A stretch of DNA of 10,042 nucleotides from Verrucomicrobiota bacterium. Its GTDB lineage: Bacteria > Verrucomicrobiota > Verrucomicrobiae > Chthoniobacterales > UBA10450. Both the position numbers and the translations under genes were made by a program. A model generated the notes under the pieces. It was not told the DNA's origin, did no database searches, and saw nothing but the letters and a program-made list of their open reading frames with translations. Within the stretch, counting starts at the first letter, position 1. Each line of letters begins with the position of its first letter. This document shows, in pieces, positions 541 to 10,042 of this stretch. Where the stretch lies: positions 1 through 10,042 of the forward strand of contig VBQB01000128.1 in NCBI GenBank assembly GCA_005887855.1. The letters run 5' to 3'.

Positions 541-657
541 TTAGGTGCAACCGCGCAGCAGAAAGATCAGGAGCAAAATCGGAATCGGAATTGCGAGAAG
601 CCAAAGTAAAATGTACCCAGTCGCACCCGGTTGTTTGAGTCTATTCGTTAAACGCAT
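541..657 (-). CDS. 38-aa single-pass membrane peptide
   Basis: A short leftward gene starts at the ATG at 657, preceded by AAGGA nine bases upstream, and ends in TAA at 541-543. The same frame stays open upstream to 735, but the ribosome site favours the 657 start. The peptide has a polar N-terminus (MRLTNRLKQPGATG) followed by one hydrophobic segment of about 22 residues (YILLWLLAIPIPILLLIFLL) and ends RGCT. Small peptides of this pattern (YILLWLL-x-IPIP-LLLIFLLRGC) are familiar from proteobacterial and soil genomes as uncharacterised membrane proteins. A decayed paralogue lies at 942 on the other strand. Function unknown; it probably sits in the inner membrane. It starts 77 bases left of repeat element 1, which may carry its promoter. 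Confidence 0.7.
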   Translation of the reverse strand: MRLTNRLKQPGATGYILLWLLAIPIPILLLIFLLRGCT

Positions 658-734
658 CTCAGATGATCCTTTCTTAATGTTATTGATCCGAAACTCTTCG
701 TGCGCGCAGGAACCTGCTTTGATTGATGAACACA

Positions 735-778
735 CACAATCGGGACGGCGGATGATTGTCTAATCAGACAAAATCCTA
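735..778 (+). repeat. 44-bp conserved intergenic element, copy 1 (long-repeat family A)
   Basis: First of five 44-bp elements. It begins CACAATCGGG and ends CAAAATCCTA. It contains the perfect palindrome TTGTCTAATCAGACAA (756-771) and an ACAATC-N12-GATTGT inverted repeat on its left. A TTGTCT/TATGAT pair (756-761 and 777-782, 15-bp spacer) resembles a rightward promoter, though the spacer is short. Similarity to copy 3 (4662) continues rightward to about 907, including an exact 22-base match at 863-884. The gene-poor stretch 658-1149 otherwise holds only the peptide remnant at 942. The element lies between the leftward 38-aa peptide gene and the rightward remnant plus CsbD gene. Confidence 0.85.
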
Positions 779-941
779 TGATATGCGACGATTGTCTCGA
801 AGCCTGGATCACCGCGGCGTTGATCTGATTGAGAGCCGCGCTGTCGTTTGGCCGGTGGTGGTATTAGGATTGCGAACGCCGCAGTTGGCTACGCCAGGTT
901 TTTCAGTCGCTCACACGATACCGTGACCTGCGTTTTCCGGA

Positions 942-1148
942 ATGCGGTCGGGAGTAACCGCTTACATCTTGCTTTGGCTTCCGGGAGTTCCTGTTCCAGT
1001 GCCGCTCAACGGTCATGTCACTTACGAAGCAACACAGCCTTTCGCCCCCGCCACGGCTCAATTACTCTCCTGCGCGGGCTCTGAACAAACTGCGTCCTGC
1101 AGGTGGAACAGCTGCAACCAGTTTACAAATTTTCTACGATTTAAATGA
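942..1148 (+). pseudogene. Decayed paralogue of the 38-aa membrane peptide
   Basis: The frame opening at the ATG at 942 encodes MRSGVTAYILLWLPGVPVPV, which aligns with the GATGYILLWLLAIPIPILLL part of the peptide gene at 541-657 on the opposite strand. The DNA also aligns (for example CTTTGGCTTC in both). After PVPVPL the similarity stops: the LLLIFLLRGC end is replaced by a polar sequence (NGHVTYEATQ...) that runs on to a TGA at 1146-1148, one base before the CsbD start. Prolines replace leucines in the hydrophobic part, so membrane insertion is doubtful. I read this as a truncated, drifting copy. It could still be translated as a short leader coupled to the CsbD gene. No convincing ribosome site is visible. 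Confidence 0.45.
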
Positions 1149-1149
1149 T

Positions 1150-1329
1150 ATGGATTCAAGCTCGAGTAATAAAATTAAAGGCAGCCTTCACGAGGCTAAA
1201 GGCAAGATCAAGCAAGATACTGGTAAGGTTACCGGGAATCGCGATTTAGAAGAGCGCGGAGCTGCCGAGAAAACTGGCGGCAAAGTGGAAAAGAAAGTCG
1301 GAGACATTAAGAAAGTCTTTGGCAAATAG
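1150..1329 (+). CDS. CsbD family stress-response protein
   Basis: A 59-residue, highly charged protein. It carries the CsbD-like core: NKIKGSLHEAKGKIKQDTGK near residues 7-26, then VTGNRDLEERGAAEKTGGK near 27-45 and a lysine-rich end. CsbD proteins are small, soluble and largely helical; in Bacillus subtilis and others they are induced by the general stress response, but their activity is unknown. The length matches the family (about 60-70). The ATG at 1150 was chosen because CsbD similarity begins directly after it; the frame is open further upstream but that part is unrelated. No good Shine-Dalgarno is present; TGA of the preceding remnant ORF lies one base before the start, so re-initiation is possible. 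A GNRA-loop hairpin terminator follows at 1351. Confidence 0.9.
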   Translation: MDSSSSNKIKGSLHEAKGKIKQDTGKVTGNRDLEERGAAEKTGGKVEKKVGDIKKVFGK

Positions 1330-1350
1330 ATAGACAGGTTAACTAGCGAC

Positions 1351-1378
1351 GCAGCGCGAAAGCGTTGCCGTTCTTTCT
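1351..1378 (+). terminator. Rho-independent terminator after the CsbD gene
   Basis: GCAGCGC pairs with GCGTTGC (seven pairs, one G-T) around a GAAA tetraloop, followed by CG and the T-rich run TTCTTTCT. It lies 22 bases after the CsbD stop codon. The stem and GNRA loop are directly visible; the terminator role is inferred. Confidence 0.65.
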
Positions 1379-1487
1379 AGCGATACTACTGCGCACGCGC
1401 ACTCAGCCAGCGGAACGACACGACTCTGTCTGCCAGTGGTCCAGGCTCGTCGACGGAACGAGTGCTAATTAACGGCAAGGAGCATGT

Positions 1488-1610
1488 ATGTTTAAATTCG
1501 TGATTTTCGACCTGGACGGAACGCTTGTGGACTCCGTCAATCAGAACGCGCAAACGTGGCAGGAGACGTTTTGGAAGCTTGGTAAAGCGTATGCCGGAAA
1601 AAAATATTGA
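1488..1610 (+). pseudogene. Truncated HAD-superfamily hydrolase, N-terminal remnant
   Basis: An ATG at 1488 with a good ribosome site (AAGGAG five bases upstream) opens a 40-codon frame encoding MFKFVIFDLDGTLVDSVNQN and ending in TGA at 1608-1610. The DLDGTLVDS segment is motif I of HAD phosphatases of the beta-phosphoglucomutase/phosphoglycolate phosphatase type, including both catalytic aspartates (D8, D10). The following residues (AQTWQETFWKLGK) still look like the start of the helical cap domain. A whole HAD enzyme has about 210-230 residues, so about 180 are missing, and sequence after 1591 belongs to the overlapping isochorismatase gene. The likely cause is a deletion that joined a HAD gene start to the next gene. 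The peptide cannot be an active phosphatase. Confidence 0.75.
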
Positions 1611-2214
1611 TCTGCACGGCAGTGCACCGGACAAACATAAGTCCGCGCTTCTTTTGATTGATGTCATCAACGACCTCGATTTCCCCAAAGCGGATCAGTT
1701 ACTGAAATATGCACGGCCGATGGCGCGCAATCTCTTGCGCTTGAAACGGCGTGCGCAAAAAGCGGGAGTGCCGGTAATTTATGTAAATGACAATTTCGGG
1801 CGGTGGAAATCCGATTTCCGGCGTACTGTGGAGCACTGTGCGCGGCATGGGCGCGCCCGGGACGTCGTGAAATTATTGCGGCCCGAAGAAAGCGATTACT
1901 TCGTGCTCAAGCCGAAGCACTCTGGATTCTTTTCTACCACCCTCGAGACGCTTCTTCGCTATCTGGAAACGCAAACGTTAATCCTCACCGGCATTGCTGG
2001 GAATTTTTGCGTTCTTTTCACAGCCAACGATGCCTACATGCGCGACTTCAATTTGTTTGTGCCCTCGGATTGCACGGTCTCGAACACAAAGAAAGAAAAC
2101 GATTCTGCACTCGCGCTCATGAGAAAATTTCTGAAAGCTGACACGCGTTTGTCCTCTGGAATCGTGTTGCGCGCTCGTGAAAAAAGCCGCACGACTCAAA
2201 ACGTCGCCGTTTGA
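1591..2214 (+). CDS. Isochorismatase-like cysteine hydrolase
   Basis: A 207-residue protein of the isochorismatase/nicotinamidase fold. The catalytic triad is visible: Asp24 in LLLIDVINDLDF, a Lys in FVLKPKHSGFFSTTLETLL (Lys107 by alignment) and Cys140 in LTGIAGNFCVLFTANDAYMRDF. The conserved non-Pro cis-peptide region before the cysteine (GIAGN) is also present. Length is normal (about 180-210). Members hydrolyse amides or C-O bonds in nicotinamide, ureidoacrylate or isochorismate; the substrate cannot be read from the sequence. The start at 1591 (MPEKNIDLHG) is preferred because upstream codons in this frame overlap the HAD remnant and look non-coding. It overlaps that remnant by 20 bases, so translation may depend on ribosomes started at the strong 1478-1483 site. 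The C-terminal 15 residues are basic and variable. Confidence 0.9.
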   Translation: MPEKNIDLHGSAPDKHKSALLLIDVINDLDFPKADQLLKYARPMARNLLRLKRRAQKAGVPVIYVNDNFGRWKSDFRRTVEHCARHGRARDVVKLLRPEESDYFVLKPKHSGFFSTTLETLLRYLETQTLILTGIAGNFCVLFTANDAYMRDFNLFVPSDCTVSNTKKENDSALALMRKFLKADTRLSSGIVLRAREKSRTTQNVAV

Positions 2215-2243
2215 GAAACTTTTGTCGAAAATTGCGCGCAAAC

Positions 2244-2268
2244 GCAGGCCGACGATAAACCGGTCTGC
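2244..2268. terminator. Hairpin between convergent genes
   Basis: GCAGGCCG pairs with CGGTCTGC (eight pairs, one G-T) around a nine-base loop. It lies 29 bases after the isochorismatase stop and on the far side of the leftward DUF3618-like gene end. It lacks a clean T-run on either strand, so it may be a weak or factor-assisted bidirectional terminator. The rest of 2215-2359 shows nothing recognisable. Confidence 0.35.
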
Positions 2269-2359
2269 CTCATCCCTGCTTGAGAGGTGCGATTGCTATA
2301 CGAATCTTCAAATTGGAGAAAGGAGCAAAAAAATACCTACAAGAACTAAGAGCATCCCC

Positions 2360-2749
2360 CTACCTGCTTCTTGCTCGCGGTTGCCCGGCAACACCCGTCC
2401 GTCTGTTTTTAACTAGCTCCACTATCGCTGGGCGGATCAGGCTTGCTCCAATTTTCAGCGCGCCGAGAGCAAAGCCGGTTTCGACAAGCTTCTTGTTTGC
2501 TTTTCGACCGCTCTTTAAATCGACATACATTTTTTTCTTTCGCGTGGGCAGTAGGACAATCAACGCGCCGACCGCGGTTGCGGCTGCGAGCCAGGAAACT
2601 GTTTGTTCTCGAAATGATCTCTGTAGTTTCGCAGGAAGATCCAGTTCATAGTGCAGGCCGCGCAGGTCGCACCCCACACGCTCGCGTGAACGGGCTATCT
2701 CCGTTCTTAGCTCGTCGGTTGATTTGTTGCGTCCAGATTTTTCAGCCAT
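2360..2749 (-). CDS. DUF3618 / YqjK-like membrane protein
   Basis: A 129-residue protein starting MAEKSGRNKSTDELRTEIAR. The N-terminal motif (DELRTEIARSRERVGCDLRGLHYELDLPAKL, residues 12-42) is the charged helix seen in DUF3618-type proteins. It is followed by a membrane segment at about 51-69 (VSWLAAATAVGALIVLLP) and a basic cytoplasmic part with a second weakly hydrophobic stretch at 92-112. The start is well supported: GGAGG lies seven bases before the ATG. It overlaps the end of the upstream holin-like gene by 43 bases, so the two are co-translated or at least tightly linked. It is last in a three-gene operon, the position of yqjK in enterobacteria. The role is probably envelope-associated; no enzymatic motif is seen. 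Confidence 0.75.
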   Translation of the reverse strand: MAEKSGRNKSTDELRTEIARSRERVGCDLRGLHYELDLPAKLQRSFREQTVSWLAAATAVGALIVLLPTRKKKMYVDLKSGRKANKKLVETGFALGALKIGASLIRPAIVELVKNRRTGVAGQPRARSR

Positions 2750-3138
2750 TCACGATCCTCCTTCAATTCAGTTAATGTCGCGCGAAAGAGCGGCTTAGTC
2801 ATTCGGCTGCGTGCAACCAAGAGTAGAATGAGCGCAATCATAAAATGCCCTCCAGCAGCGGCCAATGCTGTCCATACCCACGAGATTCCAACCAGATGGG
2901 CCGAGCCGACAACGGCGCTGACGATAAGAAAAACATAGCCTAATACGCAAAGGACCAGGGCTAGAATCAAACATGCCGCCAGCACGAGCAACTGCACGAG
3001 CGCTGCTTTCGACTCCTGAGCGAAAAGAGCAAAGCGGCCTTCGAAAAACTCTGTCAGCGCACTCGCGAGCCCCAACAGATTTTCAAGCAAACCGGCATGC
3101 CCCGCGGGATTACGGGAGCGAGTCGTCTCGCTGATCAT
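2707..3138 (-). CDS. Phage-holin-like family membrane protein (YqjE type)
   Basis: A 143-residue membrane protein. An amphipathic N-terminal helix (LLENLLGLASALTEFFEGRFALFAQE, about 17-42) leads into two hydrophobic segments at about 47-77 and 87-109, then a charged tail (LTELKEDREWLKNL). This layout matches the Phage_holin_3_6/YqjE family, whose members are chromosomal membrane proteins and not lysis proteins despite the name. The likely location is the inner membrane. It follows the DUF883 gene by 15 bases and overlaps the DUF3618-like gene, the order yqjD-yqjE-yqjK known from Escherichia coli. The ATG at 3138 has no strong ribosome site; translation may be coupled to the gene before it. 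Function in this family is unproven. Confidence 0.8.
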   Translation of the reverse strand: MISETTRSRNPAGHAGLLENLLGLASALTEFFEGRFALFAQESKAALVQLLVLAACLILALVLCVLGYVFLIVSAVVGSAHLVGISWVWTALAAAGGHFMIALILLLVARSRMTKPLFRATLTELKEDREWLKNLDATNQPTS

Positions 3139-3153
3139 CCGGCGGCAGCGCGA

Positions 3154-3441
3154 TCAACGCCGGAAGATTAGGCCCAGGACAAACCCGATTCCAAGCGCTG
3201 TGAATACTGCCTTGGTCGGATTTTCGCGCACATATTGATCAGCATCTTCCCGGAACGTCCAGACGTGATCTCGGGCATCGTCCCAGGTTTGCTCAGCCTT
3301 ACCGCGATACTCTCCACCGATTTCACCTCCCGCCGATTTCAAATCCTCGGCCGCTTGTTGCGCGTGAGTTCTACTACTTTGTAATTCATGAGTGTCTGTC
3401 ATGCCAGAACCAGTTTGTTGTGCTTTATTCTCTTCAGCCAT
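3154..3441 (-). CDS. DUF883 (ElaB/YqjD/YgaM) C-tail-anchored protein
   Basis: A 95-residue protein: a polar, helix-forming body with regularly spaced charges (residues 20-70) and a C-terminal anchor, VRENPTKAVFTALGIGFVLG followed by LIFRR (71-95). The RENP motif leading into a Gly-rich membrane helix that ends in arginines is the signature of the ElaB/YqjD/YgaM family. In E. coli these inner-membrane proteins bind ribosomes in stationary phase. The frame is open upstream to 3477, but the ATG at 3441 (MAEENKAQQT) has GGGAG seven bases before it and fits the family length. First gene of the three-gene leftward operon. Its leader contains the left arm of repeat family A (shared with the gene at 4577), so its expression is likely controlled from element 2. 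Confidence 0.85.
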   Translation of the reverse strand: MAEENKAQQTGSGMTDTHELQSSRTHAQQAAEDLKSAGGEIGGEYRGKAEQTWDDARDHVWTFREDADQYVRENPTKAVFTALGIGFVLGLIFRR

Positions 3442-3497
3442 TGGTAATCTCCCGTTGATTTTCCTTCTTTCCTTCAACTCGGCTTGGAATGAAAAAA

Positions 3498-3541
3498 CAC
3501 AATCGGGCCGGCGGATGATTGTCTAATCAGACAAAATCCTA
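3498..3541 (+). repeat. 44-bp conserved intergenic element, copy 2 (long-repeat family A)
   Basis: Same 44-bp core as copy 1 with a single difference (GGGCCGG for GGGACGG). The palindrome TTGTCTAATCAGACAA is intact at 3519-3534. GATTGTCT occurs again 36 bases to the right (3553-3560). Similarity to copies 1 and 3 extends right to about 3600, and similarity to copy 3 extends left into the leader of the leftward gene (CGGCTTGGAATGAAAA near 3480, versus CGGCTTGAGAATGAAAA near 4643). It separates the leftward DUF883 operon from the rightward Lmo0937-like gene. Confidence 0.85.
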
Positions 3542-3691
3542 TGGTACGCGACGATTGTCTCGAAGCGCGGATCGCCGCTAGCTGATTTGATTGAGGCGCG
3601 CTGCCGTAAGACCGTCAGTTTTTGCTTGATCGAATCACGAAACTCTGTCGCAATAAGGGGGCTTAAATCAACTCAATTGCAAGGCATACCT

Positions 3692-3838
3692 ATGCTCTGG
3701 ACTATAATAATCATCCTAGTCGTGCTCTGGCTTCTCGGCTTCATCGGCCACTTTGGCGGCGCTCTCATCCATCTCCTGCTCGTGATTGCCGTTGTCATCC
3801 TGATCATTAACCTGATCCAAGGCAGACGGGGTCTCTGA
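3692..3838 (+). CDS. Lmo0937-like small membrane protein
   Basis: A 48-residue protein starting MLWTIIIILVVLWLLGFIGH, with a Gly/His turn and a second hydrophobic run (LIHLLLVIAVVILIINLIQG) before RRGL. This two-helix hairpin pattern is characteristic of the Lmo0937 family of tiny membrane proteins, which are widespread and often found with CsbD and other stress genes. The start at 3692 has AAGG about seven bases upstream; the longer frame from 3587 reads through the repeat and is not credible. It is the only gene rightward of element 2, about 150 bases away, and is followed by a candidate terminator at 3874. Function unknown; inner-membrane location is inferred. Confidence 0.85.
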   Translation: MLWTIIIILVVLWLLGFIGHFGGALIHLLLVIAVVILIINLIQGRRGL

Positions 3839-3873
3839 ACGAACGCACCTCCTCCCATGCTTCAGGGGCGGTT

Positions 3874-3899
3874 AGCTCGCTGCTAGAGCTTTTTGTTTT
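3874..3899 (+). terminator. Candidate terminator after the Lmo0937-like gene
   Basis: AGCTC pairs with GAGCT around a seven-base loop, followed at once by TTTTTGTTTT. It lies 36 bases after the stop codon at 3838. The stem is only five pairs, but the T-run is good. Confidence 0.55.
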
Positions 3900-3951
3900 C
3901 TAAATGGCCAGCGCAAAATCGGTGTTTCAAGTAGCCGCGGACTTGATATAA

Positions 3952-4074
3952 ATGGCGAATGGGCCTCAGGAAAAAGGCGATGATCGCGCTCCAAGCATGA
4001 AGAATTTTTCATGGCCTTCGCGCATTACGATTGGAGTGACAATTGTCCTAGTTGGCACGCAAGACGAAGGTTGA
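3952..4074 (+). pseudogene. 40-codon orphan ORF, possibly a truncated transporter start
   Basis: A frame from the ATG at 3952 to TGA at 4072-4074 encodes MANGPQEKGDDRAPSMKNFS followed by WPSRITIGVTIVLVG and a short polar end. The polar head followed by a WPxRITIGVT hydrophobic start recalls the beginning of multi-pass transporters such as the AI-2E/PerM family, in which a long first helix would follow. Here the hydrophobic stretch stops after about ten residues. No Shine-Dalgarno is clear. It lies in a 280-base region between convergent genes. It may be a gene remnant or chance; the family assignment is weak. Confidence 0.3.
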
Positions 4075-4118
4075 AGACGAGGGATTGAGCTGCTAATCGC
4101 TTTTTCTTAATCGAGCGC

Positions 4119-4577
4119 CTAATGCCGTTTTCTGCGACCGCCATGGCCTTTCCGAGCAGCCCGCGACGATGTCGACCTTCGCCCAGTTCTCGCCGCTTTG
4201 CGTGATTTTGCTGTCGTCGATCGACGTGATACTCTCTTTTTCGCCTTGCCGCGAGAGGGCGTCCCGGCTTTGCGCGATTTGGCAACCGATTTTCTGGCCG
4301 GGCGTCGCCTGCGGGGTGCTTGCGAGATCGCTTTGGAGCTTTTCACCACGCCCCGGATGGTCCGCCTTGCTGCCGGAGCAATCGGGCGTCGCTTCTCGGC
4401 GGCTTTTCCGGCAACGGCGCCCACAACTCCGCCAATAGCCGCGCCGATTGGTCCTGCTATGCTACCAATCGCGGCTCCGGCGACAGCGCCAGCAGTCTGT
4501 TTCGGAATAGGCGGGATTTCGATGTCTTCGGACAACTGCGAACGTTCTTTTTTTTGCGCGTCTGGATTGTTAGGCAT
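4119..4577 (-). CDS. Glycine-zipper protein with histone-H1-like basic tail
   Basis: A 152-residue protein in three parts. Residues 1-27 are polar (MPNNPDAQKKERSQLSEDIE, then IPPIPKQ). Residues 28-58 form a glycine zipper (TAGAVAGAAIGSIAGPIGAA, then IGGVVGAVAG) with small residues every fourth position, able to insert in or pack on a membrane. Residues 62-152 are extremely basic, with repeated RR, KSRKA and AARK motifs resembling histone H1 tails or bacterial nucleoid proteins. AAGGAG lies 11 bases before the ATG. No signal peptide is visible, so the tail probably faces the cytoplasm, where it could bind nucleic acid or anionic lipid. That role is inference. Its leader shares sequence with that of the DUF883 gene through repeat family A. 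Confidence 0.75.
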   Translation of the reverse strand: MPNNPDAQKKERSQLSEDIEIPPIPKQTAGAVAGAAIGSIAGPIGAAIGGVVGAVAGKAAEKRRPIAPAARRTIRGVVKSSKAISQAPRRRRPARKSVAKSRKAGTPSRGKAKKRVSRRSTTAKSRKAARTGRRSTSSRAARKGHGGRRKRH

Positions 4578-4661
4578 AGATGGTGGAGCTCCTTAATATT
4601 TGACTCAGCACTTTGCGGCGAGACCTTTTATTTCTCTCAAATCGGCTTGAGAATGAAAACA

Positions 4662-4705
4662 CACAATCGGGACGGCGGATGATTGTCCAATCAGACAAAA
4701 TCCTA
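4662..4705 (+). repeat. 44-bp conserved intergenic element, copy 3 (long-repeat family A)
   Basis: Differs from copy 1 by one base in the palindrome (TTGTCC for TTGTCT). Similarity to copy 1 runs right to about 4832, including the exact 22-base match at 4789-4810, and to copy 2 leftward from about 4640. The gene-free stretch 4578-4913 consists mostly of this repeat. The remainder (4833-4913) is GC-rich with a short CCCG/CGGG inverted repeat and no recognisable gene. Unlike the other copies there is no rightward gene here, only the leftward glycine-zipper gene. Confidence 0.85.
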
Positions 4706-4913
4706 TGGTACACGCGACGATGGTCTCGAAGCGCGAATCGCGGCCGCGTTGATCTGATTGAGACACGCTATCGTTGGTCGGCTGTGCTATTAGGATTGCG
4801 AACGCCGCAGCTGGCTATGCCAAGTTTTTCAACCCGAAAACCGGGCCGCCCGCGCGTGCAACCTGGCAACACGCCTTTAATCTGCGGACGACCCGGCTAG
4901 CTGGATAAGCCTT

Positions 4914-5192
4914 TCAATTCTTTGGCGCAATCCAGATGCGGTGAACTTCAACGGTTGGCCGCACCCAATCCATCGGAATCGCATTACAACGTTCCGTCGA
5001 ACAAACGATGCGCAGCGGCCCGTTTCCACGTGTGCCCCAAATCACTTGGATTTCCCGCCCAGTGATGATTTTGCCGCAAACAAGGCAATAACGTTTCTCA
5101 TCCAGGGAGTGCCACTGCCGGAATTGATCGAGTCGTTGCAGCGTCTCCAGTTTTTCTTCATCGGATAATTTGTTCGGAGAAACAAGCGCCAT
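4914..5192 (-). CDS. Small putative zinc-ribbon protein
   Basis: A 92-residue soluble protein starting MALVSPNKLSDEEKLETLQR. A short helical N-terminus (LSDEEKLETLQRLDQFRQWH) is followed by RYCLVCGKIITGREIQVI with a CxxC pair (Cys36, Cys39) and then RIVCSTERCN with a CxxxxC pair (Cys64, Cys69). Four cysteines in this spacing suggest a structural zinc site; no domain name is certain. A GTG at 5225 in the same frame would add 11 residues, but in the duplicate copy at 7413 that upstream GTG is out of frame while the ATG is kept, so the ATG at 5192 is the better start. It is transcribed away from repeat element 4. A truncated paralogue lies at 7258-7413. Function unknown. Confidence 0.7.
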   Translation of the reverse strand: MALVSPNKLSDEEKLETLQRLDQFRQWHSLDEKRYCLVCGKIITGREIQVIWGTRGNGPLRIVCSTERCNAIPMDWVRPTVEVHRIWIAPKN

Positions 5193-5334
5193 GGCCAAAT
5201 CATGCCGTTCTACCAATTGTCGCACAATCAGGCAGCCGGATGATTGGCGTATCGGTCAAAATCCTAGCTAACTTCTTTGCCCAAAAAATCCCCTACGCGT
5301 TTTGGAAAATGAGAGCGAATCGTTGATTCAAATT
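5068..5334. repeat. 267-bp duplicated segment, copy A
   Basis: This segment matches 7289-7555 in the same orientation. It covers the first part of the zinc-ribbon gene, its upstream region and 44-bp element 4. The non-coding right part (about 5250-5334, through CCCCTACGCGTTTTGG and GAATCGTTGATTC) is virtually identical between copies apart from one A in a homopolymer, while the coding part shows many substitutions and a one-base length change. Confidence 0.85.
5223..5266 (+). repeat. 44-bp conserved intergenic element, copy 4 (family B)
   Basis: Shares with copies 1-3 the ends CACAATC and CAAAATCCTA and the central CGG-TGATT and ATC-G blocks at identical spacing. The palindrome is degenerate (TTGGCGTATCGGTCAA), keeping the outer TTG and CAA. 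It lies between the leftward zinc-ribbon gene (start 5192) and the rightward PRC-barrel gene (start 5423). Confidence 0.8.
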
Positions 5335-5422
5335 GTGTATTCTGTTGATTCTATTCAACTCGTGTTCGGGAACGATTCTACATCCGAAGGCCCGATACTT
5401 GACGATTCTTTTTTATCACACT

Positions 5423-6325
5423 ATGAAAACATCACTCTTATTCGGAGCAGCGTTTGCCATCCTGGGTTTAACCGCAGCTCCAGTCATCGCTCAAACCGAG
5501 ACCAGTACAACTACGAGCACCAGCGGTCACGTGCAGACGAGCAAGCTTATTGGCACGAAAGTAAAAACCGCGCAAGGCGAAGAAATCGGCGTAATCAAGG
5601 ACATCGTGCTCGACCGCAGCAATGGGTGTATGGCCTATACCGTCCTCTCGACTGGCGCCGCCGGCACGCGGACGACCAGCCAGGCAAAAACCGTTGCCGT
5701 TCCGTGGGCAGTCTATTCCCCAACATCCGATCTGAGCGTTCTTACGGTTAGCGTTGATCGGGACCGGATCTATAACGCGCCGGTGTTTGACTACGCGCGC
5801 ATCGATGAATATGCGAGCAGCGGTTACATCAACAATGTTTACTCCTATTACGGCGTGTCAGGACAGGTCGGAGTTACCGGCCAGACTTCCGTGACTGGGG
5901 GAGCAACAGCAACGACGACCGGCGCCACCGCTAGCCCGATGCCGACTGGTTCACCTGCGGCAACGCCAGGAGGTGTTACTAGAACTCCTTCGCCAGCAGC
6001 GACCGCATCGCCAAGAGCAACGACTGCGCCCGCTGGGACTGCATCGGCAAGCCCGTATGCCACAGCGTCGGCAAGTCCACGTCGTACTGCATCTCCATAT
6101 GGCAGCGCAACCGCAAGTCCATCACCAAGAGAAACTCGGGGCGCGCGGGGCAGGACAGGTGGAACACCATCGCCGAGCGGTCGCGACGAAACGACATCGC
6201 CAAGCATGACCGAGGAGTCTTCAGCGGAAAGCGCAACGAGCCCTTCCAGCGAACGCAAAAAAAGTTCACGCCATCGTGCTACCGGAGAAACCACAGAGCC
6301 AAGCGCTACGCCGGAACAGGAATAA
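5423..6325 (+). CDS. Secreted PRC-barrel protein with Ser/Thr/Pro/Ala-rich tail
   Basis: A 300-residue exported protein. Residues 1-24 (MKTSLLFGAAFAILGLTAAP, then VIAQ) form a signal peptide with likely cleavage near VIA-Q. Residues about 38-140 are a PRC-barrel domain: SKLIGTKVKTAQGEEIGVIK, then DIVLDRSNGCMAYTVLS and KTVAVPWAVY. From about residue 145 the sequence is low-complexity, rich in Ser, Thr, Pro, Ala and Gly with recurring ASPxxTAS-like units (ATASASPRRTASPYGSATAS), ending in a mixed charged stretch. PRC barrels are binding or structural modules; periplasmic versions occur in stress-related proteins of soil bacteria. The ATG at 5423 is chosen because the signal peptide starts there; codons upstream to 5333 are not signal-like. 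No Shine-Dalgarno is seen. Periplasmic or surface location is inferred. Confidence 0.85.
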   Translation: MKTSLLFGAAFAILGLTAAPVIAQTETSTTTSTSGHVQTSKLIGTKVKTAQGEEIGVIKDIVLDRSNGCMAYTVLSTGAAGTRTTSQAKTVAVPWAVYSPTSDLSVLTVSVDRDRIYNAPVFDYARIDEYASSGYINNVYSYYGVSGQVGVTGQTSVTGGATATTTGATASPMPTGSPAATPGGVTRTPSPAATASPRATTAPAGTASASPYATASASPRRTASPYGSATASPSPRETRGARGRTGGTPSPSGRDETTSPSMTEESSAESATSPSSERKKSSRHRATGETTEPSATPEQE

Positions 6326-6388
6326 GTTGTCAGCGCAGCAAAACAAAACGGGAAAAGGCCTGTCTTTCTCTTTTAACTTTTCGAACAT

Positions 6389-6541
6389 TCAGATTCGTCC
6401 CAGCAACGCCAGGATCAGCACGATTAAAAGAATCAAGCCTAGGCCGCCGCTCGGGTAGTAGCCCCAGCCAGAACTGTACGGCCAAGTTGGCAGTGCTCCG
6501 ATTAGTAGGAGGATTAGAATAATTAGCAGAATTGTGCCCAT
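6389..6541 (-). CDS. DUF3309 family small membrane protein
   Basis: A 50-residue protein starting MGTILLIILILLLIGALPTW, with a central aromatic loop PYSSGWGYYPSGG and a second hydrophobic segment LGLILLIVLILALLGRI. This matches the DUF3309 pattern closely in both sequence and length (two short membrane helices joined by a WPYSxGWGYYPSGG turn). The family is common in alphaproteobacteria and soil bacteria and often found in stress regulons; its function is unknown. The stop TGA is at 6389-6391. A weak AGG lies ten bases before the ATG. The gene follows the ECF sigma gene by 111 bases on the same strand, so it may be co-transcribed with it. Confidence 0.9.
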   Translation of the reverse strand: MGTILLIILILLLIGALPTWPYSSGWGYYPSGGLGLILLIVLILALLGRI

Positions 6542-6652
6542 GAATCGAGCCTATTCGTTTCGACCACCGAATCGCAACTTTTTTCTCTGTCTTGGCTTTT
6601 GGCCGACAATTCCGCCTAACTGCTTCCTGCATGAGTATATTGTCATAGCCAG

Positions 6653-7249
6653 TTAGATTTTGTGACGCAGCGGTCTGATCGCGTGGGTCAATTTTTGCAG
6701 ACCCAGTTCCAGCCGCGTTTTGACGGTTCCGAGCGGCGCGCGAGTCGCGGTCGCAATTTCGCTGTGACTCAACCCTTTGAAAAATGCGAGTTCGACCGCC
6801 TCGCGTTGAAGCCGCGGCAGAGCTCGTATGGATTTCTCGAGAAAGTGCTGCAGATCGTTCAACACAAAAGGATCATATGCGGCACGACGCAGATTTCGCG
6901 GTTGCTGCCCGAGCTGTTTGCTGTAACGCTCCCGCGCACGAGAATAGGCCTGACGTCTGCGCAATCGGTCAATCGCGCGACGCCGTGCAATCGTTACTAT
7001 CCAGCCGAGCGGCGTGCCTGCTTTCGGTGAATAGCGATCTGCCTCATTCCAAATTTGGAGAAGAATTTCCTGCAACACATCGTCAGTGTCGGCCCCTTCA
7101 TGAACGACACCATTGATCATTGCCCTGAGTCTCCGGCGGTGGCGTCCATATAACTCCGTGAGCGCGTCGTGCCGCTGGCGCGAAATATGGTTTATGAGCG
7201 CCTCGTCCGTTGACGCCGCTGCGCCTGCTCTATCAAGAGTTTCGATCAC
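6653..7249 (-). CDS. ECF RNA polymerase sigma factor (sigma-70 family)
   Basis: A 198-residue two-domain sigma factor. Region 2 spans about residues 29-99 with DTDDVLQEILLQIWNEADRY and GWIVTIARRRAIDRLRRR (core binding and -10 recognition). A linker follows, then region 4 at about 137-190 with IRALPRLQREAVELAFFKGL and the helix-turn-helix SHSEIATATRAPLGTVKTRL (-35 recognition). No C-terminal extension or fused anti-sigma domain is present. The start is a GTG at 7249, eight bases after the stop of the truncated zinc-ribbon ORF; the next in-frame ATG would cut into region 2. No anti-sigma gene is adjacent on either side, which is unusual for this group. Regulation may come from element 5 upstream or from the HK/RR pair nearby. 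Confidence 0.93.
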   Translation of the reverse strand: MIETLDRAGAAASTDEALINHISRQRHDALTELYGRHRRRLRAMINGVVHEGADTDDVLQEILLQIWNEADRYSPKAGTPLGWIVTIARRRAIDRLRRRQAYSRARERYSKQLGQQPRNLRRAAYDPFVLNDLQHFLEKSIRALPRLQREAVELAFFKGLSHSEIATATRAPLGTVKTRLELGLQKLTHAIRPLRHKI

Positions 7250-7257
7250 ACGTGTTC

Positions 7258-7413
7258 TTATCTTTGGAATTGAGCATGCTGCTCAACCATTTTGCCGCAA
7301 ACGAGGCAGTACCGTTTCTCATCCATGGAGTGCCAGTGCCGGAATTGATCGAGTCGTTGCAAGATCTCCAGTTTGTCTCCCTCGGATAATTTGATCGGAG
7401 AAACGAACGCCAT
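7258..7413 (-). CDS. Truncated zinc-ribbon paralogue upstream of the ECF sigma gene
   Basis: A 51-residue ORF from the ATG at 7413 to TAA at 7258-7260. Its first 42 residues (MAFVSPIKLSEGDKLEILQR, LDQFRHWHSMDEKRYCLVCG, KM) match the zinc-ribbon protein at 4914-5192, but the similarity stops after the first CxxC pair. The ending VEQHAQFQR is unrelated and the second cysteine pair is missing. It could be a dead fragment left by duplication. However, the frame has stayed open despite many substitutions and an upstream one-base length change, and its stop lies only eight bases from the sigma factor GTG, so it may serve as a translated leader. A longer overlapping frame at 7233-7481 is out of register with the conserved protein and is not the gene. 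Confidence 0.55.
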   Translation of the reverse strand: MAFVSPIKLSEGDKLEILQRLDQFRHWHSMDEKRYCLVCGKMVEQHAQFQR

Positions 7414-7555
7414 GGCCAAAGCATGTTGTTTCTACCAATTGTCGCACAATCAGGCAGACGGCTGATTAGCGTATCGGTCAAAATCCTAGCTAACTTCTTT
7501 GCCCAAAAATCCCCTACGCGTTTTGGAAAATGAGAGCGAATCGTTGATTCAAATT
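7289..7555. repeat. 267-bp duplicated segment, copy B
   Basis: Counterpart of 5068-5334. The left boundary falls inside the zinc-ribbon frame at the codons after the first CxxC, explaining the truncated paralogue. The right boundary follows the GAATC-GTT-GATTC hairpin. In this copy the hairpin is followed by AAATTTTTGA, so it resembles a weak rightward terminator; in copy A the T-run is absent. Confidence 0.85.
7445..7488 (+). repeat. 44-bp conserved intergenic element, copy 5 (family B)
   Basis: Nearly identical to copy 4 (GACGGCTGATTAG for GCCGGATGATTGG). It lies between the leftward truncated zinc-ribbon/sigma operon and the rightward histidine kinase operon. The gene-free stretch 7414-7719 holds this element, the rest of the 267-bp duplication and about 165 bases of kinase leader. 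The leader contains two short frames, a 17-codon ATG frame at 7643 and a 37-codon GTG frame at 7601, neither of which is recognisable. Confidence 0.8.
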
Positions 7556-7719
7556 TTTGAGGCGATTCGCCATCGGCCTTTGTTGGGTTATCATATTTGT
7601 GAAAGCGGTGAACATCGAAAAGGCGCCGGAGCTCGATAGAAAATGGAGAGTCCTAAATCCTCGGACCGGACGACGGGCGGAGCGACCGAGAATTGAAAGG
7701 GGCACGAATTAAAAGGCGA

Positions 7720-8481
7720 ATGCAATCTCGTCGCAAAGCCAAGATAGGTTCGCGCCGATCCCGATCGCACTTGGAGGCACGTGTCAAGGCACGCACTGCC
7801 GAATTACGTGCCGCAAATAAGAAATTGGAACGCGAGATCCAACGCCGGAAAGGGCTTGAAGGCGAGATCCTCGAAATCAGCGATCGCGAGCAACAGCGAA
7901 TCGGTCAGGAACTGCACGATGAGCTGTGTCAGCACCTCACTGCCGTCGCGTTCATGACACGCGCGGTCGCCTTACGCCTGAAAAATCATCGTGTCATCGA
8001 ATTCGAAGATCTCGACAAGATTTCCGAATTGGTAAATCAGGGTGCAACCGACGCCCGCAACATCGCGCGGGGCTTACACACAGCCGAAGTCGATGCAGCG
8101 AGGTTGTTACCTGCAATACGAGATCTTGTTTCTCGGGAAATCTGGAAAACGCCCTGCCGGCTGGAGGTGAAAACAAAACTGGATCTCCATGACGACGCTG
8201 TCGCTTCACATCTTTATCGACTGCTGCGCGAAGCCGTCATCAACGCGCATAAACACGCTCAAGCAAAAGAGATCGTGGTTGGAATCAGCCGATCAAACGG
8301 CGAAATCGTCTTTAGCGTAACGGACGATGGAATCGGTATTCCCGCGGGCAAAAACAACCGCCACGGATTGGGATTTTATATTATGAACTACCGCGCTCGC
8401 ACCATCGGAGCCCGTCTCGAGGTCAAGCGCAGGCAGCGCCGCGGCACTCGGGTTGTTCTTTATTTGCCGCAATCAAAATGA
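7720..8481 (+). CDS. Cytoplasmic sensor histidine kinase, HisKA_3 (NarL-type partner)
   Basis: A 253-residue kinase. Residues about 18-52 are a coiled coil (LEARVKARTAELRAANKKLE), the linker usually placed after a HAMP or PAS domain. The HisKA_3 dimerisation segment follows, with REQQRIGQELHDELCQHLTA and phosphoacceptor His66. The HATPase_c domain shows the N box (LLREAVINAHKHAQA, Asn175), the G1 box (DDGIGIP, 202-208) and the G2 region (HGLGFYIMNYRA). No membrane helix or sensory domain is present, so the signal must come from a partner or from the short N-terminus. An in-frame TTG at 7693 is an alternative start; the ATG at 7720 has AAAAGG close upstream. A stop at 7654-7656 rules out a longer product. 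It overlaps the response regulator by four bases (ATGA). Confidence 0.92.
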   Translation: MQSRRKAKIGSRRSRSHLEARVKARTAELRAANKKLEREIQRRKGLEGEILEISDREQQRIGQELHDELCQHLTAVAFMTRAVALRLKNHRVIEFEDLDKISELVNQGATDARNIARGLHTAEVDAARLLPAIRDLVSREIWKTPCRLEVKTKLDLHDDAVASHLYRLLREAVINAHKHAQAKEIVVGISRSNGEIVFSVTDDGIGIPAGKNNRHGLGFYIMNYRARTIGARLEVKRRQRRGTRVVLYLPQSK

Positions 8482-9224: not shown

Positions 9225-9401
9225 TCCGAAAGCCTTCGCAAGTAGTACCGAACATTCTAACGCTAGTGAGGCGAGACCCTGGCACCCGCCAAACCGATAT
9301 TCGTTAAAAAGGTTACATCGTTACCCCGGCTCCGGCTCAACGCTTCAACGCTTCAACAGTTTCCCTTTTGTTCCCCAGGAAGCCGTCGCATAGTTTCTGT
9401 G

Positions 9402-10042
9402 ATGGATTCGACGACGCGTGACGCGGTTGATGAGCTGCTTCAAACTTACAGCGAAACCGGCGGCATAAATTATCTCGACGCCGCCGCCACTTTACCGTCG
9501 CGTCTCGCGATCGAGTCGGCTTGCGCAGATTTGATGAGCTTGATGTTCCCCGGCTTTCGCAGCGAATCGCTGGTGAGTTCCGAGGATCTAGCCGAGACGA
9601 CCCGGACCCGAGTACGAAATCTCCACGCGCGACTCAAAAAGGAAATCTGCCGAAGCCTGGGGAAAATTCCGCCAGACGAAGCGACCGACCGGCGAGCGGA
9701 CGAAATTTTGGGCTACTTCATGTCGGAGCTGCCGAGAGTGCGCAAGACGCTTTGGACCGACATCGATGCGGCCTATGAGGGCGACCCCGCGGCGCAAAGC
9801 TACGAGGAAATTATCCTGGCTTATCCGGCCCTGGAAGCGATCGCCATCCAACGCATGGCGCATGAGCTTTATCTAAAGGAACTGCCATTGATTCCCCGCA
9901 TCATGACAGAATGGGCGCATAGCCGCACGGGGATCGACATCCATCCCGGCGCAAAGATTGGTTCACATTTTTTTATCGACCACGGCACCGGAGTTGTGAT
10001 CGGCGAGACGTGTGAGATCGGCTCGCGAGTAAAATTGTTCCA
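9402..10042 (+). CDS. cysE: Serine O-acetyltransferase (EpsC/CysE type), 3' end outside window
   Basis: Starts at the ATG at 9402 and stays open for 213 codons to the window edge. The N-terminal helical domain (residues 1-165) includes LGYFMSELPRVRKTLWTDID and AYPALEAIAIQRMAHELYLK, typical of EpsC-like serine acetyltransferases. The left-handed beta-helix begins at SRTGIDIHPGAKIGSHFFID and HGTGVVIGETCEIGSRV, containing the catalytic Asp-His pair (FIDHGTG) and hexapeptide repeats. The enzyme transfers acetyl from acetyl-CoA to L-serine, giving O-acetylserine for cysteine synthesis in the cytoplasm. About 90-110 residues should follow. A GTG directly before the ATG is an alternative start; no strong ribosome site is seen. 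It is a housekeeping gene and probably marks the right end of the stress cluster. Confidence 0.93.
   Translation, partial: MDSTTRDAVDELLQTYSETGGINYLDAAATLPSRLAIESACADLMSLMFPGFRSESLVSSEDLAETTRTRVRNLHARLKKEICRSLGKIPPDEATDRRADEILGYFMSELPRVRKTLWTDIDAAYEGDPAAQSYEEIILAYPALEAIAIQRMAHELYLKELPLIPRIMTEWAHSRTGIDIHPGAKIGSHFFIDHGTGVVIGETCEIGSRVKLF

Follow-up and report, generated by a model that had tools for sequence, protein, structure and literature searches.

What is the 44-bp element that occurs five times, always in the same orientation, in a 10,042-nt stretch of contig VBQB01000128.1 from a Verrucomicrobiota bacterium (the window, in what follows)? A sequence-only reading of this DNA had proposed a shared control site for a local stress regulon and had named a mobile or repetitive extragenic palindromic (REP)-like repeat as the main alternative. 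Comparison with related genomes supports the element as a promoter element of a family-specific stress regulon under an extracytoplasmic function (ECF) sigma factor, and not as a mobile repeat. In the explanation that we prefer, to which we assign a probability of about 0.63 from sequence comparison, the element would be a leftward promoter of stress genes that is autoregulated by the SigK-like ECF sigma factor encoded in the window (6653–7249), with CYNATTG as its -10 and the -35 contact inside a second conserved block. No paper on this element, regulon or circuit was found, in a literature search with thin coverage of subscription journals.

A conserved core and its placement before genes

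The five copies, 44 bp each and on one strand as first described, match the invariant blocks listed for them with 0 mismatches, and 200 dinucleotide shuffles of the window contained none (chance expectation 0.00). A position-weight scan of both strands scored them at 61.0–72.6 bits and the next-best place at -12, with a matrix built from the five copies and related sites, so that the copies are part of its training set. Two subtypes can be told apart, A (at 735, 3498 and 4662) and B (at 5223 and 7445). The earlier description of the flanking DNA as different holds only in part. Copies 4 and 5 lie within a duplicated segment of about 300 bp (5068–5369 and 7289–7587; 266 of 309 aligned columns identical) that includes the start of a zinc-ribbon gene, and copies 1 to 3 have diverged common flanks (266 of 386 columns identical between copies 1 and 3, at 579–932 and 4502–4854; 181 of 264 between copies 1 and 2). 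These shared flanks are ascribed to segmental duplication.

Read leftward and reduced to the form that distant relatives share, the 42-bp core is TMRGNNTTTNNCYKA-N20-CYNATTG, in which TMRGNNTTTNNCYKA is block 1 (positions 0–14) and CYNATTG is block 2, the 3' block (positions 35–41). At all loci except the window, 112 of the 115 pairs of blocks found within 5–39 bp of each other were spaced by 20 bp, two by 32 bp and one by 30 bp, and a search on the other side of block 1 gave one block 2 match. Because some loci had been chosen by a fixed-spacing pattern, the count was redone on 86 loci fetched for their ECF genes and not for the motif, where the spacing was again 20 bp in 71 of 74 pairs. The two pairs at 32 bp come from sister genomes (G061, L115/L152; G072, L106/L155) in which a tandem duplication of 12 bp sets the blocks further apart in the promoter of an operon of a zinc-ribbon gene (ZnR_A) and an ECF gene, a natural spacing variant.

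Profiles of 73 unique cores show a sharp edge of conservation at the distal end, and upstream of position 0 they contain no strongly conserved column, which speaks against a structured RNA in the 5' leaders of the leftward genes. Such a leader would fold into the hairpins TAGG..CCTA and CAATC..GATTG, and both inverted repeats are indeed present in several copies. However, Watson-Crick pairs were no more frequent in 48 representatives than independent columns would give (lowest p 0.059) and no Rfam family matched at its gathering score, and we regard this explanation as highly improbable.

Placement was examined for 132 distinct sites, each with the strict core or a score above 20 bits; most of the loci were chosen for having a site or an ECF gene and are not a random sample. 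For 114 of these sites (99 of 115 in the strict-core subset), a gene of one of seven query groups starts in the same direction no more than 200 bp downstream, and 7 of the 132 have a query-gene start on the opposite side. The downstream genes are two kinds of small zinc-ribbon gene, ZnR_B (49) and ZnR_A (34), followed by ECF (16, counting window copy 5), a small membrane peptide (10), DUF3309 (3), a glycine-zipper protein (1) and DUF883 (1). The gaps from site to start are narrow in most groups (25–38 nt for the 49 ZnR_B genes, 30–40 nt for the 34 ZnR_A genes and 33–34 nt for the three DUF3309 genes) and vary from 40 to 197 nt before ECF genes. The remaining 18 sites comprise seven before a hydrophilic protein with NPNEPIKP repeats, one each before a degenerate DUF3309 gene, an FHA protein and a kinase-like protein, and eight that are unassigned. 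This hydrophilic protein is of low complexity (NPNEPIKP...GGQQGGG..., with the element at L010 7469, L014 1114, L083 4596, L006 1406, L003 7047, L065 7194 and L075 9538); the one example scanned had no Pfam match, and it is perhaps a desiccation-type protein.

In many genomes the element precedes, in the same direction and within a narrow range of distances, genes of several unrelated families, which bears out a control site shared by stress genes. Only the leftward genes, those in the element's own direction, are its targets. Of the genes originally named, DUF883, the glycine-zipper gene and the ECF gene therefore stand as targets, and CsbD, the Lmo0937-like/DUF5670 protein, PRC-barrel, the histidine kinase and the response regulator, all on the other side of the element, do not.

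An exact-pattern scan of genome contigs gave 15 matches in 14 stretches, all from Verrucomicrobia or Candidatus Udaeobacter, and viral contigs gave 0. When up to 3 mismatches to the first pattern were allowed, 32 of the 83 genomes of the family matched (control 0). The strict core gave 116 matches. They are spread over 62 of the 213 genomes examined from the order, namely 59 of the 83 that belong to a single family of soil Verrucomicrobia and three of the 130 outside it. The reversed pattern gave 0 matches in the 213 genomes. Two of the three outside genomes carry the match before a zinc-ribbon/ECF operon (G108) or an ECF gene (G169), and the third match, one of the unassigned sites (G086), is probably due to chance. 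The shared control site for stress genes of the first reading is upheld, but the regulon is not only local, as sites lie on several contigs of the same genomes.

A mobile, REP-like or miniature inverted-repeat (MITE) element would likewise be short and repeated, and the duplicated flanks of copies 4/5 and 1–3 would suit it. The genomes that have the element contain only 1–5 copies, orientation and distance to gene starts are fixed, the element is present in genomes whose ECF is only 50–62% identical, and no transposase was found among 17 window open reading frames (ORFs) scanned with Pfam, although no search was made for empty sites or target-site duplications. The mobile-repeat alternative is thus very improbable, and we place it last among the explanations considered. 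The rigid placement before stress and sigma-factor genes therefore points to a stress-response circuit.

Linkage of the element to an ECF sigma factor gene

The best NCBIfam match of the window ECF is SigK (NF007228), at 135.2 bits and thus below the cut-off of 226, and its best match in the PDB is also SigK (4nqw). In a tree of 81 ECF rows, 64 fall into one clade, ECF-1. The 700 bp upstream of the gene contain a site with no more than one mismatch in 58 of the 64. Among the six exceptions, three genes begin less than 80 bp from a contig end, two have the version stretched by 12 bp and one is unclear. Among 83 genomes, sites were present in 53 of 63 with ECF-1 and 6 of 20 without (p=1e-5), compared with 47 of 59 with the response regulator and 12 of 24 without (p=0.015), and they therefore track ECF-1 more than the response regulator; these lists were compiled by hand, the contigs are short, and the response regulator was counted from 53% identity up.

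Zinc-ribbon genes head the list of targets, with 83 of 132 sites, as would fit an operator through which a zinc-ribbon protein regulates its own gene. Yet some sites stand directly before ECF genes with no zinc-ribbon gene between, including that of an ECF of 42% identity in G169, and in a genome without ECF-1 (G012) a zinc-ribbon gene of 69% identity has no site. This explanation is, in our judgment, very unlikely. ZnR_A and ZnR_B form one family with six invariant columns, among them the first CxxC (12 sequences aligned), and neither has a Pfam match. ZnR_B has 2262 database relatives at E ≤0.001; the 120 of them that were listed are without Pfam domains, and all the names given read "hypothetical protein". 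The predicted ZnR fold (model mean pLDDT, the predicted local distance difference test, 80.5) had no PDB match below E 1 among the best 50.

In all 21 other ECF-bearing loci of one comparison, a ZnR_A match precedes the ECF gene (in L005 only 30 residues align). The window has in that place a truncated ZnR_B duplicate, ending 8 bp before the ECF start and lying under its own duplicated B-type element, copy 5. The duplication therefore seems to have put the ECF gene under the control of a sister promoter.

A change in the sigma factor itself is matched by a change in block 2. Six ECFs have D/E, and not Q/A/S, in the RRR[x]xY loop after helix 2.3, and in all 12 of their ECF and ZnR_A promoters examined ATTG is replaced, by ATGG in 8, ATAG in 1 and ATTT in 3. 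Rows with a Q/A/S loop and a readable site keep ATTG. A strict ATTG site is missing altogether from five of the six D/E-loop genomes; the sixth (G036) has three, two of them beside a second, Q-loop ECF. The counterpart of this loop in alignments with two sigma-E-like ECFs (6in7, 8z6g) is the stretch ARGRRPP, and loop L3 is described in the accessible portion of PMC8103513 as setting -10 specificity in ECFs. Together, the co-change and the role of L3 speak for block 2 as the putative -10 read by ECF-1, although the co-change comes from a single clade. A possible reversion of loop and -10 in L146 was not used, as the site has 2 mismatches and was not confirmed.

We propose that the ECF-1 holoenzyme would read the element and that the element would also drive the ECF gene, a positive autoregulation. 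Sigma domain 2 would read CYNATTG as the -10, the -35 contact would lie inside block 1, 20 bp from block 2, and block 1 may be read by sigma-4, by the neighboring NarL-type regulator or by both. The protein assigned to each block, the putative start site, the presumed signal and a candidate role of the zinc-ribbon protein in control are what we infer here from the arrangement. The end of block 1, CYKA, stands 23 bp (first base to first base) from the -10 if the latter is taken as YCYGA, which we take to be the place expected of an ECF -35 by comparison with sigma-E. The -10 box of Mycobacterium SigK, CCGAAT, is similar to CCGATTG. A canonical ECF -10, C[AG][TG]C at positions 24–27, had been a candidate, as it fits GGA-N17-CGTC in a few copies, and was dropped in view of the weak conservation of these columns in 48 clusters.

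Block 1, the neighboring response regulator and points against the promoter reading

Several observations weigh against ECF-1 as the reader of the element. At 15 bp, block 1 is longer than the contact expected of sigma-4, and in the sister genomes G061 and G072 it is shifted by 12 bp; if these promoters work, block 1 cannot be the -35. No pair of blocks is spaced by 19 or 21 bp, which is stricter than expected for a sigma promoter. The boxes AAC (-35) and CGTT (-10), canonical for EcfG in what could be consulted of PMC8103513, are absent from the column profile of the 48 clusters. Five genomes with sites have the response regulator and no detected ECF-1, and one has neither, in a set whose contigs are short. 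The ECF-2 paralogues have the same sigma-4 helix as ECF-1, PLGTVKTRLELG, yet lack the element, and the element is not confined to one ECF clade, since L162 (G108) and L193 (G169, on a long branch) lie outside ECF-1 among relatives without it; as a label on the ECF tree it needs 7 changes. As to the co-change, it may be one event in a single clade, the base changed is not the same throughout the 12 altered promoters, and the third ATTG site of G036 stands before a zinc-ribbon gene about 3.7 kb from the D-loop ECF. The response regulator of this clade also differs, next to its recognition helix, where THR is followed by T in the four D-loop genomes compared but by A in most others (HRA to HRT).

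Among 26 stretches of 300 bp upstream of ECF-2 and related genes, 11 contain TGGACGAA, and TAAGA stretches were seen as well. ECF-2 loci thus have a recurring upstream stretch other than the element, TGGACGA ... TAAGA, for example in L215, L216, L223 and L224. The half-motif C[CT][TG]A-N18-22-C[CT]NATTG occurs in two of the 26 (L215, L219) and was taken as chance because the upstream half is missing and the match lies at the coding start.

The upstream half of block 1, too long for an ECF -35, probably binds a second factor. A second factor bound at block 1, most simply the neighboring NarL-type regulator, is a live possibility. In a rival to the ECF promoter, a dimer of the adjacent NarL/GerE-type response regulator would bind the 15-bp block 1, centered near -42, with NATTG(T/C) as a weak -10 for the housekeeping RNA polymerase. 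The two-component system would then control both the stress genes and the ECF operon, much as SigE is driven by CseBC. The outer positions of block 1 form an inverted repeat, T[AC][AG]G-N7-C[CT][TG]A, with complementary alphabets at four outer positions. The arms resemble the RcsB half-sites TTAGGAA/TCTAAGA given in the portion of PMC5829831 that was available, and activation by NarL from -44.5 at ogt is described in the available part of PMC7419079. Histidine kinase and response regulator genes lie near a number of ECF loci, and the exact spacing would suit a rigid contact between activator and polymerase, for which a shift of 12 bp is about one helical turn. On the other side, the dyad is not significant: its best center is position 7, but 24% of column permutations equal it (0.24), and the arms show no covariation. 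Sites were found in 11 of 12 genomes with ECF-1 and no response regulator, as opposed to 5 of 8 with the response regulator and no ECF-1. Furthermore, block 2 changes with the ECF loop in the D/E-loop clade, where the recognition helix of the response regulator is unchanged and one neighboring residue differs. Control by the response regulator and housekeeping polymerase is thus a doubtful explanation, although one with some weight.

The promoter reading with ECF-1 can be extended to a two-input stress promoter, in which a NarL-type response regulator dimer on block 1 and a SigK-like ECF on CYNATTG, locked 20 bp apart, would fire only if both are active, and in which the zinc-ribbon protein would be a new feedback regulator. 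We put this version forward tentatively, as a conjecture that may well fail.

Genes of the window and relation to known systems

The element copies and genes of the window are collected in Table 1. The 39-aa membrane peptide had no Pfam match (scanned as the longer ORF 541–735) and no NCBIfam match. The weight-matrix scan placed no element before DUF3309 in the window; relatives have three sites before this gene and one before a degenerate copy. The motif KTVExHR in the helix-turn-helix of the response regulator is common to nearly all of 29 rows, including the window.

Table 1. Element copies and genes of the window (gaps are from the 42-bp core to the start codon)
Feature	Position	Strand	Remarks
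Element copy 1, subtype A	735–778	-	72.6 bits; 76 nt to ATG of 39-aa membrane peptide gene 541–660
Element copy 2, subtype A	3498–3541	-	71.3 bits; 58 nt to ATG of DUF883 gene 3154–3441
Element copy 3, subtype A	4662–4705	-	70.7 bits; 86 nt to ATG of glycine-zipper gene 4119–4577
Element copy 4, subtype B	5223–5266	-	64.1 bits; 32 nt to ATG of zinc-ribbon gene 4914–5192
Element copy 5, subtype B	7445–7488	-	61.0 bits; 33 nt to truncated zinc-ribbon ORF 7258–7413; 197 nt to ECF start
SmallMP64, 39-aa membrane peptide	541–660	-	Relatives with element 71–81 nt upstream (10 sites)
DUF883 protein, C-terminal glycine zipper region	3154–3441	-	PF19029, 8.8e-07
Glycine-zipper protein	4119–4577	-	PF13488, 5e-06
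ZnR_B, small CxxC...CPTxxC protein	4914–5192	-	Commonest element target (49/132 sites); no Pfam match
DUF3309	6389–6541	-	PF11752, 4.1e-24
ECF-1, SigK-like ECF sigma factor	6653–7249	-	Pfam Sigma70_r2 2.4e-16, r4_2 5.9e-12
Truncated ZnR_B duplicate, 51 aa	7258–7413	-	Only first CxxC retained; occupies the ZnR_A place of ECF-bearing relatives
Histidine kinase (HisKA_3, HATPase_c)	7723–8481	+	Adjoins ECF locus in a number of relatives
NarL-type response regulator, GerE helix-turn-helix	8478–9176	+	Response_reg 6.8e-26, GerE 1.3e-16

Three features of other genes were seen in passing. A serine-acetyltransferase-like gene follows the histidine kinase and response regulator pair in the window (9399–10040) and, at 92% identity, in two relatives (L014 5255–5893; L210 804–1442). 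In L196 (G016), L200 (G017) and L201 (G018), a second response regulator stands in tandem behind the pair. At 1488–1610, a 40-aa start (MFKFVIFDLDGTLVDS...) carries what we take to be the motif of a HAD hydrolase and runs into an isochorismatase-family gene (1525–2214); it may be a remnant.

Compared with known autoregulated ECF regulons such as those of Escherichia coli RpoE and alphaproteobacterial EcfG, the arrangement is alike in having the ECF gene behind the same element as its regulon, in having small stress-type proteins as targets and, within the one clade with a D/E loop, in a putative -10 block that differs where the sigma-2 specificity loop differs. It is unlike them in lacking AAC/CGTT boxes, in its 42-bp element with a 15-bp upstream block and an almost invariant 20-bp spacing, and in having an uncharacterised zinc-ribbon gene where an anti-sigma gene might be. 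The EcfG/PhyR/NepR response also differs in its parts: neither NepR nor PhyR turned up in the scan of 17 window ORFs (for PhyR, the search covered the window and not its relatives), and the response regulator of the window consists of Response_reg and GerE. Although Mycobacterium SigK is the best NCBIfam and PDB match of the window ECF, the score falls short of family membership, and no RskA-like gene was found among the window ORFs scanned. ECF genes driven by two-component systems, represented in the accessible part of PMC8999054 by SigE/CseBC of Streptomyces coelicolor and by ECF39, share with the window a two-component gene pair that adjoins the ECF gene; here, however, the response regulator is of NarL type, and one and the same element precedes the ECF gene and the stress genes. 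With RcsB and NarL boxes, block 1 has in common a short inverted repeat and a TAGGA-like half-site near the expected position; it differs in being a 15-bp repeat with 7 bp between arms and a dyad short of statistical significance, and its binding by a regulator is putative only.

For this family of soil Verrucomicrobia, with a Candidatus Udaeobacter genome among its members, the element provides a nearly chance-free regulon tag, given the 0 matches of the reversed control. It points to a sigma factor, to the two-component system beside it and to an unnamed zinc-ribbon family, in a circuit that is testable in a heterologous host. The co-change of loop and -10 offers a natural test case for shifts of promoter specificity among ECFs. 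If true, the two-input promoter would give the Verrucomicrobia an equivalent of the EcfG response, assembled from other components.

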